Assembly (NCBI RefSeq): GCF_029227915.1
Contig: NC_079875.1
Span: 17,353,001-17,417,000, forward strand
Direction of reading: 5' to 3'
Source of the DNA: Hydractinia symbiolongicarpus
Taxonomy: Eukaryota; Cnidaria; Hydrozoa; Anthoathecata; Hydractiniidae
Length of the DNA stretch: 64,000 nucleotides
The position numbers and the translations under genes are program-made. This document shows positions 8,448 to 58,886 of the stretch, piece after piece (the first letter of the stretch is position 1; every line of letters begins with the position of its first letter). The notes beneath the pieces are model-generated. The model was given only the letters and a program-made list of their open reading frames with translations, was not told the DNA's origin and did not search any database.

Positions 8448-27784
<19,337 letters not shown>

Positions 27785-34604: not shown

Positions 34605-35639
<1,035 letters not shown>

Positions 35640-54379: not shown

Positions 54380-54572
54380 TAAATAAATAAACAAACAAAC
54401 AAACAAACAAACAAACAAACAAACAAACAAACAAACAAACAAACAAACAAACAAACAAACAAACAAACAAACAAACAAACAAACAAACAAAACAAACAAA
54501 CAAACAAACAAACAAACAAACAAACAAACAAACAAACAAACAAACAAACAAACAAACAAATAAATAAATAAA
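54380..54572. repeat. (AAAC)n microsatellite
   Basis: About 45 units of AAAC, bordered by AAAT units on both sides, with one phase slip near 54490. The Val-Cys-Leu-Phe open frames on the opposite strand are artefacts. Confidence 0.98.
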
Positions 54573-55373
54573 TATGGAATTGAACATCTGAAACATTTTC
54601 CGCCTAAATAATATATATTATACTTTTATCAAAGATACATCACAGCCATCACAACAAAAACAACATAGTCCATCCTTCAAAAATCCAATTTGATAATATC
54701 GGACTACTTCACCATGTAAAGGTGGTTTATTTGTCAACTATCACATTTGTCCACGAACCCAGTGTTCTGCTTTTGTTACTACAAGTAAAACTTTATTGCC
54801 ACTTTTATACAGCTCAATCTCTCAGAGTTAACCAGAACATTTGGAATATCACAGCCATATGACAACATGGTTGTAAAAGAATGTTTCTAATCTGAAGGGG
54901 TTGAGCTGTCTGAATACAACATCAACATCAGTTGAGCCAAAAACACGATGAGCATACGAGAAGTCTCCAGGTAGGCATTATCCTAAAAAGTTATATACAA
55001 GATACATACAATTTTTCATAGCTGTAAAAAAATTAATCCTCATGAGAATATAGTGTTCCAAATTTATATGTGAAAAATTTTGAAAATGCTTAATTGCGAA
55101 GTTTTTACGCTTTATTTTGTAATTTTCTCGACTTTCAAAGACTTCCTTCTATATTTGATATCTACACTAGTTTTACTTGCTTTTGTAGGAAGCAGTGTGC
55201 CATTTCCCAATTCAAGACAGTAAAAAAAGCTTCACAAAGAAGTGGTATCAAATCTGAAAAATATTTAAATAATAAACTAAATTAATAAACTAAAAAATAT
55301 AAGAAAATAATTCTGGACGATACGAACAACGTTAAAGAAGAAGAATATGTTGTCCATGGGCAGAAAATATATA
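54573..55373. other. no gene recognised
   Basis: Sequence between the AAAC tract and the left end of the pogo-like element. Only chance open frames are seen. Confidence 0.45.
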
Positions 55374-55398
55374 CCGTATTTCCTCTAATAAGCGCCGC
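55374..55398 (+). repeat. left terminal inverted repeat
   Basis: Begins CCGTATTTCCTC directly after TA. It runs into a palindrome, AATAAGCGCCGCGGCGCTTATT (22 bp, split by the end of the matched repeat), which the right end lacks. Confidence 0.9.
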
Positions 55399-55419
55399 GG
55401 CGCTTATTTAATTTTTGTG

Positions 55420-55474
55420 ATTTTAGGTGCGGCGCTTATTAGAGGGCGGCGCTTAATAGAGGGCGGCGCTTATT
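55420..55474 (+). repeat. 55-bp direct copy of the right-end subterminal block
   Basis: The segment from ATTTTAGGTGCGGCGCTTAT to GGGCGGCGCTTATT is identical, in the same orientation, to 58069-58123 at the other end. It lies inside the left end of the transposon. Confidence 0.9.
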
Positions 55475-55674
55475 TCGAAATTTCAGATTTCAAGTTTCTG
55501 AAGTTTTTGCCTATTCTTCAAATTCAATCCGTTGGTTGAATGCTATCCTTAGTAAAAGTTTTTTTGATAGATTTGGGGTTCTATAGAGGGGTAAGTAACG
55601 TACGAGAAAGAAATAACGGGTGAATTATCGTGTCTTTTCCTGTTCTCTTTCTATCAAATATAACAAAGATAATT

Positions 55675-57093
55675 TCAAACATCAATTTCTTCGTCGCTTT
55701 CTTGATCAGAGTCAATCAAATGAAACGGCCCGCATGCATCCTCAACATCCGAATCTGTTATGTTCTCAAAAGGATTTATTTGACTCTCTTCCTCTTGCAA
55801 GATATTCAGGGATTCTCTTAGCCGTGATGCCCCATCAGGACAAGCTCCCTCCTTTTTAAAACAGTGGATCTTGTCATCTTCACTACCATCGACTGGAAGG
55901 CTTAAACCGCATGTTTTAAAAGATTTCACGATGAGCTCACTTGACAGCTTTTTCCAACCTTCTAAGATCCACTCGATTACTTTCCTTCGCGGAGGTGGCT
56001 TCATATTACCTGCTTTTGTATATTCGTGGATCCCTTCACTAAGCCATGTATCGTAAGCTTCGGTAACATGAGCTTTGAATGGCTTATTCCACGAAACATC
56101 GGGGGCTTGAATATACGGAGTACAACCACCGGGGACGATAACTGAATCAACATTGAAACTTTTCAAACGTTGCTTGATTGTTTGCATCATGTGGCATTCA
56201 AAGGAATCCCAAGCTAACAATCGCTTTTGAAAAGAAAATTTACCAATAACTGTTTTAATGTATTCTAATGTCAATTCCTCATTCATCCAAGCATTTGAAG
56301 ATGAAGCGATAATACATTTAGATTTGTATTCTTCGTTTAGAGCATTACATTCCCGCTTTGCACCCCCAAAAACGATGAATGGTTTGAGCCGTGTTCCATC
56401 AGCCTTTGCTGTAAGGCACACAGAAACTCTGACTTTCTCATGGCCAGTGGTCTTTAAAGGAATGTCTTTCTTTCCTTTGCTTTCTACAGTTGTCCCTGAG
56501 AGCATGTCAGACCAAATTGCAGTTTCATCCATCGCAATGATTGAACCAGCGGAGTATTTAAATTTTCTTTGTAATCGTCGGCACTGTAAAACATACATGA
56601 CAAGTTTGTCGACCATACAACTAGGATTCTTTTGAGCGGTAGTTGTTCTTCTCCTTAAAGAAAGTCCGTTTCTTTTCATAAATTTTTCCAACCATCCACG
56701 ACTGGCTACAAAGCTCTCTTTTACAGCAGGGTCATCGGTGCTTTTGTCATGGATAATCTTTGCTTTCTTCATTATTAATTTTCGAGAAACTCTAAGCATT
56801 GCTGATCTACGATCCATTATCCAGATGAGTACTTCTTCTTCTAAGTCGTCGTTCGTGAGCTTTCTTCCCCCACCATCAAGTCTTCTTCTTTTCAGTCCAC
56901 CTTTATCAGCAACCCTGGCTTTGATGTCTTCCATTTTTGCTCTCCATTCACGAACTCTCCTCTCGTCAACATTGTATCGCCTTCCTGCTTGGCGATTTGA
57001 ATAATTGATTGCATATTCCACGACTTCCTTCTTCAGATCCAAGGAATAGGATTTGATTTTTTCTCCTTTGTGTGAATTCTCGGTTGGAGCCAT
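55675..57093 (-). CDS. pogo/Tigger-type transposase (472 aa)
   Basis: This DNA transposase should cut and join the element's ends. The N-terminus (residues about 10-55) is a psq-like helix-turn-helix (LKKEVVEYAINYSNRQAGRR, RRVREWRAK). A CENP-B-type DNA-binding domain follows (about 80-150, EEEVLIWIMDRRSAMLRVSR then GWLEKFMKRNGLSLRRRT). The DDE catalytic core has AMDETAIW (D189), LLAWDSFECH (D296) and YIQAPDVSWNKPFK (D332), a DD35D triad of pogo type, closest in feel to Tigger/POGK proteins. The C-terminus is acidic (SDQESDEEIDV). All catalytic residues are present and the frame is intact. I start at ATG 57093 (MAPTEN); the longer frame would begin with GTG. It is divergent to the HIRAN-like gene. 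Confidence 0.95.
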   Translation of the reverse strand: MAPTENSHKGEKIKSYSLDLKKEVVEYAINYSNRQAGRRYNVDERRVREWRAKMEDIKARVADKGGLKRRRLDGGGRKLTNDDLEEEVLIWIMDRRSAMLRVSRKLIMKKAKIIHDKSTDDPAVKESFVASRGWLEKFMKRNGLSLRRRTTTAQKNPSCMVDKLVMYVLQCRRLQRKFKYSAGSIIAMDETAIWSDMLSGTTVESKGKKDIPLKTTGHEKVRVSVCLTAKADGTRLKPFIVFGGAKRECNALNEEYKSKCIIASSSNAWMNEELTLEYIKTVIGKFSFQKRLLAWDSFECHMMQTIKQRLKSFNVDSVIVPGGCTPYIQAPDVSWNKPFKAHVTEAYDTWLSEGIHEYTKAGNMKPPPRRKVIEWILEGWKKLSSELIVKSFKTCGLSLPVDGSEDDKIHCFKKEGACPDGASRLRESLNILQEEESQINPFENITDSDVEDACGPFHLIDSDQESDEEIDV

Positions 57094-57269
57094 GTTATTT
57101 TGCACACACACACACCTCGCTCGCTAGAAATATTTTGTTTATTATACACTAGAACGACTTCATTTTTCGTACCAAAATCAAGCATTACAATAGCTTCCCG
57201 CATTCCATTTTTTCAAAAGGTAAACAAACAATGCAATGACTTCGCTGTACATTCAAGAGAGGGCGAAAC
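57094..57269. promoter_or_regulatory. shared divergent promoter region of the transposon's two genes
   Basis: Only 176 bp separate the two start codons, so both promoters must overlap here unless untranslated exons lie elsewhere. A CACACACACACAC run adjoins the transposase start. A TATTATACA box-like word at 57138-57146 is possible but unproven. Confidence 0.5.
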
Positions 57270-58031
57270 ATGGCTAGAACTATTCCAAGAAACTTTTCAT
57301 TTGCCTTTATTGTGAAGTTTGAAACAAACATACGAGGCCACCATGTCTACAAAGATGTTTGGACTCCAACTCTGGGAGAGAAACTTAACTGCAAACCAGA
57401 CGAAAGAGAAGAGGCCAAAGAATATGATCAAAACGCCATAGGTGTATACAAACTAAAGCCACAGGTTACAGTAAAAGGTGAAGATGAATCCGACAAAAAA
57501 CCTACAGAAGAAAATAAAAAGACAGAATCAGAATCAAGTACTACACCAGCGGTTGAAAACGAGAAAAGTGAACCAAGCGAAACAAACAAAACGAACAAAG
57601 TAACCAAAGCCAAAGGAAGAAAATCAACCAAAGGAAGTAAAGCAGCAAAGGAAACTGAAGCAGTCAAAGAAACTGAGGTCGCGATCGAACCAGTATCTAA
57701 AGAGGTCAATAAAGAAGTTGTCGAAATAGATTCAGACGATCTGGGAGAAAAGGATGATGAGTTTTTAGTCGGACATTTACCCATTGAACTATCCAAACTA
57801 ACGAAACAATTTTTGAAATCTGATAAAAACAACACGATGATCGCAAAAGTAACGGGAAAAAGGAAACGAGAGCTTGGCTTGGTCGTCCCTGCCAAGTTTC
57901 TTTGCTGTTCAACCAACAGTAAAATTGCAAACATTCTTTATGAGGAACTTAATAAGAAGAAATGTAAATTTAGCTATTTAGAACTTAATGTAAATGAATA
58001 TTGCAATAAGAAGACTATAGAGTTCGAATAA
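57270..58031 (+). CDS. transposon-borne HIRAN-like protein with charged linker (253 aa)
   Basis: The two ends of the protein read as halves of a HIRAN-type domain. Residues about 13-62 contain FETNIRGHHVYKDVWTPTLG and EYDQNAIGVYKL, matching the HIRAN pattern (G-x2-VY, GE-L, then the D-x-NAI-V core). Residues about 163-215 contain EFLVGHLPIELSKLTKQFLK and a TGKRKRELGLVVPAKFLC strand, matching its second half (VGHLP-E-S, then a T-G-R-R turn). Between them, residues about 68-162 form a Lys/Glu/Ser/Thr-rich low-complexity linker. HIRAN domains bind single-stranded DNA ends, in HLTF for example. Here a role in handling transposon ends or replication forks is inference. The ATG at 57270 is the first in frame, and the stop overlaps an AATAAA. 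It could also be a captured host gene of this HIRAN-like type. Confidence 0.75.
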   Translation: MARTIPRNFSFAFIVKFETNIRGHHVYKDVWTPTLGEKLNCKPDEREEAKEYDQNAIGVYKLKPQVTVKGEDESDKKPTEENKKTESESSTTPAVENEKSEPSETNKTNKVTKAKGRKSTKGSKAAKETEAVKETEVAIEPVSKEVNKEVVEIDSDDLGEKDDEFLVGHLPIELSKLTKQFLKSDKNNTMIAKVTGKRKRELGLVVPAKFLCCSTNSKIANILYEELNKKKCKFSYLELNVNEYCNKKTIEFE

Positions 58032-58032
58032 A
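58027..58032 (+). promoter_or_regulatory. AATAAA overlapping the stop codon of the HIRAN-like gene
   Basis: AATAAA at 58027-58032 includes the stop TAA (58029-58031). This is a compact layout consistent with a small transposon; a real 3' end would fall shortly downstream, inside the right end of the element. Confidence 0.45.
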
Positions 58033-58068
58033 AGCATTGAAATCTCATTTTCTCTTTCGAATTTTCGA

Positions 58069-58136
58069 ATTTTAGGTGCGGCGCTTATTAGAGGGCGGCG
58101 CTTAATAGAGGGCGGCGCTTATTGGAGGAAATACGG
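58069..58136 (-). repeat. right terminal and subterminal repeats of the transposon
   Basis: The block 58069-58123 equals 55420-55474. The outer 25 bp (58112-58136) are the inverted partner of 55374-55398, ending GAGGAAATACGG before TA. Confidence 0.9.
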
Positions 58137-58886
58137 TACCATTAAATGTAATTCGCCGAAATATTTATAAAAAAAATAAAAAAATTAGGTATATAATAAG
58201 AGATAGCGTTGTAAAGATGAAGTGACATTTCTTGCTAAGAGCAGACCACTCAAAGTTAATGAATAGTGGGTATTTAATGTTTACAGTCTGAAATCTCTAG
58301 CACAGCATCAAAATATTTTTAACAGATGAAGAGTATATATTGCATATATACTGTAAAGTACAAAAAAATAAAAGTCACTTAGTGCTTAGTCTTTGGTAGA
58401 CACCCCGATCCTTTACATTCTCTAACATTACGAGACTAGACTAGAGTTGGTTTCTTTTTTAGTTATTAGCTAGCTGTAAGCTATATAGCTATATACTGCT
58501 TTTTCAATAAAAGAAGCTAACTAGCCACAACAGCTATTACATTTTGGCTATTGCAATGAAAAAAATAAAAGAAAACAAGGAAATGGAAGAGTTTTTTATA
58601 TTACTTAATCCTTTCGGTAGTCATATAATACTTACATATATCATAAATAATTTCTTCTTGGAGCCAAAAAGCAAAGTTTGTTGATAAAATAGTCTGCGCC
58701 TCTTTTTGATACATCACCAACCAATATAGCCGCCAACCCGACACATTCACCATCAAAATTCGTCATATTTTGAAAAGGCGGGATAACGAACAAAAAACGG
58801 AAAATTCGGAGACATTCCTTAACTCACCCGAGCGCAACATAGCGAGTTGACAGCCATTTTATACATAAAACCGGTATTATCAAAAA
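58137..58886. other. no gene recognised
   Basis: AT-rich sequence right of the transposon; nothing supported. Confidence 0.45.

Follow-up and report, generated by a model that had tools for sequence, protein, structure and literature searches.

Why would a pogo-type transposon carry, back to back with its transposase gene, a second gene of a quite different family? The question is raised by an element in a 64,000-nucleotide stretch of the genome of the hydrozoan Hydractinia symbiolongicarpus (RefSeq assembly GCF_029227915.1, contig NC_079875.1, positions 17,353,001–17,417,000; this whole stretch is called the window, and coordinates are counted from its first letter). A preliminary description had proposed a Tigger/pogo transposon with a HIRAN-like second gene, which might belong to a two-component system or have been captured from the host. 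From the analysis given here, the element is probably a Passer-type pogo transposon that is autonomous, has been active recently and carries two divergent genes, the second of which would encode a HIRAN-domain protein that aids the transposon itself. This estimate leaves aside any shielding of 3' DNA ends from the host protein HLTF, which is weighed separately below.

The element and its second protein

The transposase scored above the Pfam cut-offs for DDE_1, HTH_Tnp_Tc5 and BrkDBD, the last narrowly (23.8 against a cut-off of 23.4), and its catalytic residues D189, D296 and D332 form a DD35D triad, which bears out the intact DDD transposase described earlier. Passer elements are characterized by BrkDBD with HTH_Tnp_Tc5, a DD35D triad and TA target sites (PMC7386202, PMC9976928), by terminal inverted repeats (TIRs) that are mostly shorter than 30 bp, by transposases of 400–500 residues and by element lengths of 1.6–4.0 kb (PMC9976928). 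The window element resembles them in its TA target sites, 25-bp TIRs, DD35D triad, combination of BrkDBD and HTH_Tnp_Tc5, 472-residue transposase and length of 2.8 kb. Tigger is defined by a CENP-B_N motif where a second DNA-binding-domain motif is present (PMC7386202); the Pfam scan of the window transposase gave BrkDBD and no CENP-B_N. The pogo superfamily was therefore retained from the preliminary description and Tigger was replaced by Passer, an assignment that is based on domains, triad, ends and sizes and not on phylogeny.

The second gene is an open reading frame (ORF) for 253 residues. Chance was rejected as its origin: none of 1000 Markov-simulated sequences gave a frame of that length (the largest had 151 residues), and conserved homologues exist, in agreement with the intact gene of a different family that had been described. 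Its HIRAN domain is split by a lysine- and glutamate-rich insert of 98 residues with short repeats. With the insert (residues 64–161) removed, the protein matched the Pfam HIRAN family (PF08797) at 27.2 bits (E = 3.6e-6), whereas eight shuffled controls (six of the second half and two of the first half) gave a HIRAN report once, at 12.5 bits. Relatives of the protein that are devoid of the insert occur in the same genome, and five of eight unaltered relatives passed the HIRAN cut-off (L035, narrowly, at 24.8 bits, and L053, L054, L055 and L056). A family profile built from 11 transposon HIRAN proteins, including that of the window, matched five distinct HLTF HIRAN sequences in the PDB (entries 2mzn, 5bnh, 4xzf, 4s0n and 4xzg, all human HLTF HIRAN; E values of 1.9e-7 to 2.5e-7), the next hit having an E value of 0.78. 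In the HIRAN alignment the VGHxP stretch is among the invariant columns, as are D and A in YDxNA.

Several results count against this identification. The intact protein scored only 16.5 bits against PF08797, below the cut-off of 24.7, likely because of the 98-residue insert. Two of the relatives also fell below the cut-off (L033 at 15.1 and L038 at 20.7 bits) and a third, L041, gave no match. A single-sequence AlphaFold2 model, computed with no alignment, had a predicted local distance difference test score of 33 and was uninformative on the fold. Single-sequence PDB searches with the second protein did not find the HLTF HIRAN chains, and comparison with NCBIfam and PHROGs gave no useful match. 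Judged on these profiles together with the anatomy of the element, the product is almost certainly a free-standing HIRAN-domain protein. The HIRAN-like character proposed in the preliminary description is thus backed by sequence profiles; as a correction to that description, the domain is interrupted by the insert of about 98 residues.

The two end arms (55372–55398 and 58112–58138; 27 nt including the TA) are 96% identical. TA is present on both sides, as described earlier; the repeats, which had been called perfectly placed, agree at 24 of 25 positions with a single mismatch. The subterminal 17-bp motif has six sites in the window (up to three mismatches allowed), every one inside the element; 100 shuffles gave a mean of 0.01 sites and none of them reached six. 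Within the left array, a 64-bp block (55399–55462) is bounded by 12-bp inverted repeats. With this block reversed, the left end mirrors the right end at 73 of 77 positions, compared with 37 of 77 as it stands. An inversion specific to this copy was ruled out, as the 19 other places in which a left end was present all show the same arrangement (L028 being shorter by one repeat unit). Most other copies have an extra subterminal array that is absent from the window copy. The start codons of the transposase (− strand) and the second ORF (+ strand) lie 176 bp apart, with transcription leading away from each other, and the intergenic region presumably holds both promoters. The features are listed in Table 1.

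Table 1. Features of the two-gene element (window coordinates).
Feature	Position	Strand	Remarks
Whole element, Passer-type pogo transposon (predicted)	55374..58136		2763 bp without TA
Left TA target-site copy	55372..55373		
Left terminal inverted repeat	55374..55398	+	
Left array of 17-bp motifs, mixed orientation	55382..55474		One inverted, then two full and one partial direct
Transposase, 472 residues	55675..57093	−	BrkDBD (15–59), HTH_Tnp_Tc5 (81–147), DDE_1 (222–392)
Intergenic region between the two divergent start codons	57094..57269		176 bp
Second gene, predicted HIRAN-domain protein, 253 residues	57270..58031	+	
HIRAN domain, first half, residues 17–61	57318..57452	+	
Charged, repeat-rich insert, residues 64–161	57459..57752	+	Absent from sister families
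HIRAN domain, second half with VGHLP, and C-terminal part, residues 162–253	57753..58031	+	
AATAAA, poly(A)-like signal	58027..58032	+	Overlaps the second-gene stop codon; putative role
Right array, three 17-bp motifs	58078..58128	+	
Right terminal inverted repeat	58112..58136	−	
Right TA target-site copy	58137..58138		

The gene pair within and beyond the family

The genome (480.9 Mb in 76 contigs) was searched with the second protein and 20 further places with matches were taken, giving 21 with the window. Both ends were present in 20 of the 21 places (the left end of L020 was not found), and all 20 were TA-flanked with differing flanks. Eleven copies were full length (2759–2826 bp including the TAs), with a mean pairwise substitution of 0.12% and a largest value of 0.29%. 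As anticipated in the preliminary description, the same ends enclose both genes in many copies: all 11 full-length copies encode the full 472- and 253-residue proteins, neither of which departs from its window counterpart by more than one residue. By these measures the family appears to have transposed very recently and the element to have been recently active.

Shortened copies also occur. L015 keeps ORF2 and has lost part of the transposase, L025–L032 are internal-deletion derivatives, in L051 both ends and the entire transposase remain and the start and most of ORF2 are deleted, and in L060 most of ORF2 and the start of the transposase are lost. L051 and L060 are read from their sequences as deletions of the two-gene form and not as an older one-gene form. 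Beside the ORF2-less copy, the left end of the element is tandemly duplicated (444 bp; L051:730-1194). A viral, phage or plasmid source of the element was rejected, as searches of viral contigs, phages and plasmids gave no relatives at the sensitivities used. The element ends gave four single hits in prokaryote genomes, about the chance number estimated by hand for 257 Gb.

Two sister families, with transposases 56–60% identical to that of the window, keep the divergent layout (the window's family and the two sisters are referred to as fam1, fam2 and fam3). Read by eye, the ends and motif arrays of both sisters show the layout of the window's family in altered sequence, and the arrays are likewise of mixed orientation; the intergenic region of fam1 can be aligned with its fam2 and fam3 counterparts for 16 bases at most. 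Between fam1 and fam2, the proportions of nonsynonymous (pN) and synonymous (pS) differences were 0.29 and 0.77 for the HIRAN gene and 0.27 and 0.73 for the transposase. Across all six family pairs and both genes, pN was 0.24–0.39 and pS 0.71–0.85, the transposases of fam3 and L056 being truncated frames. Synonymous sites are saturated, so that the pN/pS ratio is not exact but is well below 1 for both genes. Both genes are, on these substitution counts, evidently under purifying selection between families, as the preliminary description had expected.

The pairing was then counted in both directions. In the transposase search 90 of 833 candidates were scored, which gave at least 98 match rows; 90 rows were entered, the eight omitted being second pieces of listed places, and two places are still counted twice. 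The HIRAN set comprised 104 places, merged by hand among the matches listed (at least 163 matches; 150 of 598 candidates scored). A HIRAN place lay within 1500 bp in 64 of the 90 transposase rows, where about 0.1% per row would be expected by chance, and all 64 were divergent; among the best 50 rows, 45 had a HIRAN partner (hand count). On the other side of the balance, 26 of the 90 rows had no HIRAN place among the matches listed, and 42 of the 104 HIRAN places had no transposase row nearby, against 62 that did. Two of the 26 are the near-identical deletion copies L051 and L060, and the other 24 are 41–61% identical with stop codons in the match; it is possible that some of the partnerless rows have a HIRAN match outside those listed.

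Passer-type transposase pieces were found near five of eight further relatives and were not found near L037, L040 and L042. HIRAN frames of 196, 194 and 164 residues are present in L041, L040 and L044, in which the transposase is a remnant, missing or shortened, and HIRAN-only derivatives may be common. In L042 (2550-4454), a 507-residue ORF that by eye resembles a THAP-domain protein from a different type of transposon is directly preceded by a fragment matching the L035-type HIRAN at 96% identity over 100 residues.

When the genome was searched with the Pfam HIRAN model, 150 of 251 candidates were scored and at least 91 matches exceeded the cut-off; among them are an HLTF-like host exon (C3:13870189, 80.9 bits) and several sets of copies with equal scores. 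Six kinds of match were followed with one representative each (L053–L058). A pogo-type transposase lies divergently upstream in four of the six: L053 (where it is broken), L054 and L055, all three with DDE_1, and L056, whose broken frames resemble those of L054 and L055 (46 and 45% over about 200 residues). TA-starting inverted repeats enclose five of the six (L053–L057); they are perfect over 43 bp in L054 and extend over only 14 bp in L053. In L057 the 1.2-kb interval between the inverted ends holds a HIRAN gene only, with no transposase, and for L058 neither transposase nor ends were found. These transposases are distant from that of the window: those of L053 and L054 share 20–25% identity with it, that of L055 aligns only with that of fam3 (18%) and that of L056 not at all at E = 1e-3.

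For the families shared between them, the HIRAN and transposase trees are compatible: fam1 and fam2 group together, followed by fam3; L053 stands apart; and L054 groups with L055, followed by L056. Several nodes are weak (0.56–0.83), and the host exon falls beside the L054–L056 group on a long branch. A G-x-H ... W signature is present in all 11 aligned transposon HIRANs and absent from the host exon, which favours a single origin of the transposon HIRANs, with several tree nodes weak. Because the HIRAN gene is kept beside pogo transposases in several lineages, it most likely helps the transposon itself. The recurrence of the pair in distantly related families suggests a second working part and not an accident, and it is very probable that the gene has a conserved accessory function in the life of the transposon itself.

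Possible roles of the HIRAN protein

A mechanism can be proposed in which the two helix-turn-helix domains of the transposase would attach it to the arrays of 17-bp motifs at either end of the element, which it would cut and paste at TA. Tc1-like transposases leave short 3' overhangs. The HIRAN protein would occupy exposed 3' ends of DNA, either within the transposition complex or at stalled forks, and would exclude the host HLTF, so that the complex would not be pried off and the ends would not be sent into resection; it would act as a transposon-borne HLTF competitor. The model draws on reports that the HIRAN domain of HLTF binds 3'-OH ends of single-stranded DNA, that HLTF strips Cas9 post-cleavage complexes from DNA through this domain and that the isolated domain is dominant negative for Cas9 removal (PMC11237066); the HIRAN barrel and its nucleotide pocket are known (PMC4666394). 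This specific shielding step is possible but doubtful. Equally tentative is the broader proposal that pogo elements have long inherited a free-standing HIRAN protein as their second component (in this genome alone in a Passer-like, a Tigger-like and a third clade), and that it rivals HLTF by guarding cut ends or stalled forks; if this were true, transposons would have in the protein a counter-defence against the remodelling of forks.

Several observations speak against the proposed shielding. Replacement of N90/N91 by alanine in human HLTF disrupts HIRAN function (PMC11237066), and the window protein has A and K at the corresponding positions. None of the six Passer-type sequences has NN there and, by reading of the alignment, only L054 and L056 of the 11 aligned do. 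N90/N91 is a feature of HLTF-type binding and not of the whole HIRAN family. A scan for PCNA-interacting-protein (PIP) boxes gave none in either protein of the window's family. Furthermore, fish Passer transposases need no second gene to mobilize their elements in human cells (PMC9976928), so for the family at large the HIRAN protein must be an aid and not part of the core reaction.

Other explanations of the gene pair were considered. The HIRAN protein, alone or with PCNA, might bring the transposase to replication forks or nicks and so favour the time or place of the jump or insertion, on the model of the sliding-clamp contacts of other transposons. This reading, which we hold to be on the unlikely side, draws on the report that HLTF fork remodelling requires HIRAN (PMC4666394) and on a review in which the pogo transposase binds PCNA and the PIP box is conserved in Tigger, its functional relevance being called unclear (PMC5371812). 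PIP-box strings were found near the C-termini of the L054 and L055 HIRAN proteins (in 1.1 and 2.1% of shuffles, respectively) and at the C-terminus of the L053 transposase (1.4%). This gives three of the 22 protein pieces scanned, compared with 0.27 expected from shuffles; it is also just three of 22, two of them homologues, and the absence from the window's family tells against such targeting there. Alternatively, the protein might bind the transposase or the terminal arrays and tune transposition or transcription, as self-regulation or counter-silencing, with no role at DNA ends. The short intergenic region shared by the divergent genes and the absence of the HLTF DNA-end residues in the window's family would suit this explanation, but the invariant D and A of YDxNA and the VGHxP stretch point to a domain function that has been kept. 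We know of no HIRAN that acts as a transcription regulator, and the explanation is improbable.

A further alternative is that a host HIRAN gene fragment was captured once and has been carried along as passive cargo. The host does have its own HLTF-like HIRAN exon, and L051 has lost ORF2 while its transposase is intact. However, in several families the pair has persisted under purifying selection while the proteins diverged by about 40%, the transposase-only copy L051 is a deletion of the two-gene element, and the signature common to the transposon HIRANs is missing from the host exon; passive carriage is very improbable indeed. The one-off capture of a host gene offered in the preliminary description was abandoned on the same grounds, as the pair is kept in sister families and beside other pogo-type transposases. 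That description had also named transposase-only copies, with a second gene unique to this insertion, as what would contradict it; such copies exist, as deletions, and the pair is widespread.

An accessory role for the HIRAN protein therefore remains the preferred reading, and the intact, recently amplified copies, 0.12% apart, make it directly testable in cells. If it is right, the second gene would give pogo lineages a factor of their own for managing post-cleavage ends or replication forks. Stray 'HIRAN' gene predictions in animal genomes may be transposon genes.

Neighbouring features and comparison with known systems

Elsewhere in the window, a 32-bp tandem repeat of 48 copies with 93% matches (22273-23807), a perfect 439-bp tandem duplication (2034-2913) and long AT and AAAC microsatellites (34608-34821 and 54381-54572) were observed, together with a 529-residue open frame that by eye is a cytochrome P450 (40359-41948).

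Open-licence papers were searched for HIRAN together with pogo, Tigger, transposon or transposase, and no pogo–HIRAN pair was found among the papers listed (Repbase and closed-access papers lay outside this scope). The accounts of ORF content differ, with 'one or two ORFs encoding transposases' in one source (PMC7386202) and a single ORF in the other (PMC9976928). Unlike the described one-ORF Passer elements, the window element has a conserved divergent HIRAN gene and 17-bp motif arrays. Reading 'one ORF' as a description of the known members and not as a criterion, we regard the element as a Passer-like variant; the transposase with a divergent HIRAN gene appears, on sequence comparison, to be a conserved two-gene pogo architecture that goes beyond the one-ORF Passer elements.

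With HLTF and Rad5 (PF08797), the transposon HIRANs share the YDxNAI and VGH stretches. They differ in being free-standing, without an SNF2 ATPase or RING domain, and in the extra G-x-H ... W signature, to which the window's family adds the long insert. The L053-type transposase, with its C-terminal PIP-box string, resembles the PIP-box-bearing pogo and Tigger transposases (PMC5371812) in a link to replication; in L054 and L055, unlike these, it is the second protein that bears the string, and neither protein of the window's family does. Pogo elements are also the source of CENP-B, POGZ and the TIGD genes (PMC7386202). Additional ORFs beside a transposase are also found in the ciliate Tec and TBE elements, which are related to Tc1/mariner; their accessory ORFs encode a recombinase, a zinc-finger protein and a protein of unknown function, and the passages of that source on these ORFs mention no HIRAN among them (PMC7325037), in which respect the Hydractinia element is set apart from them.

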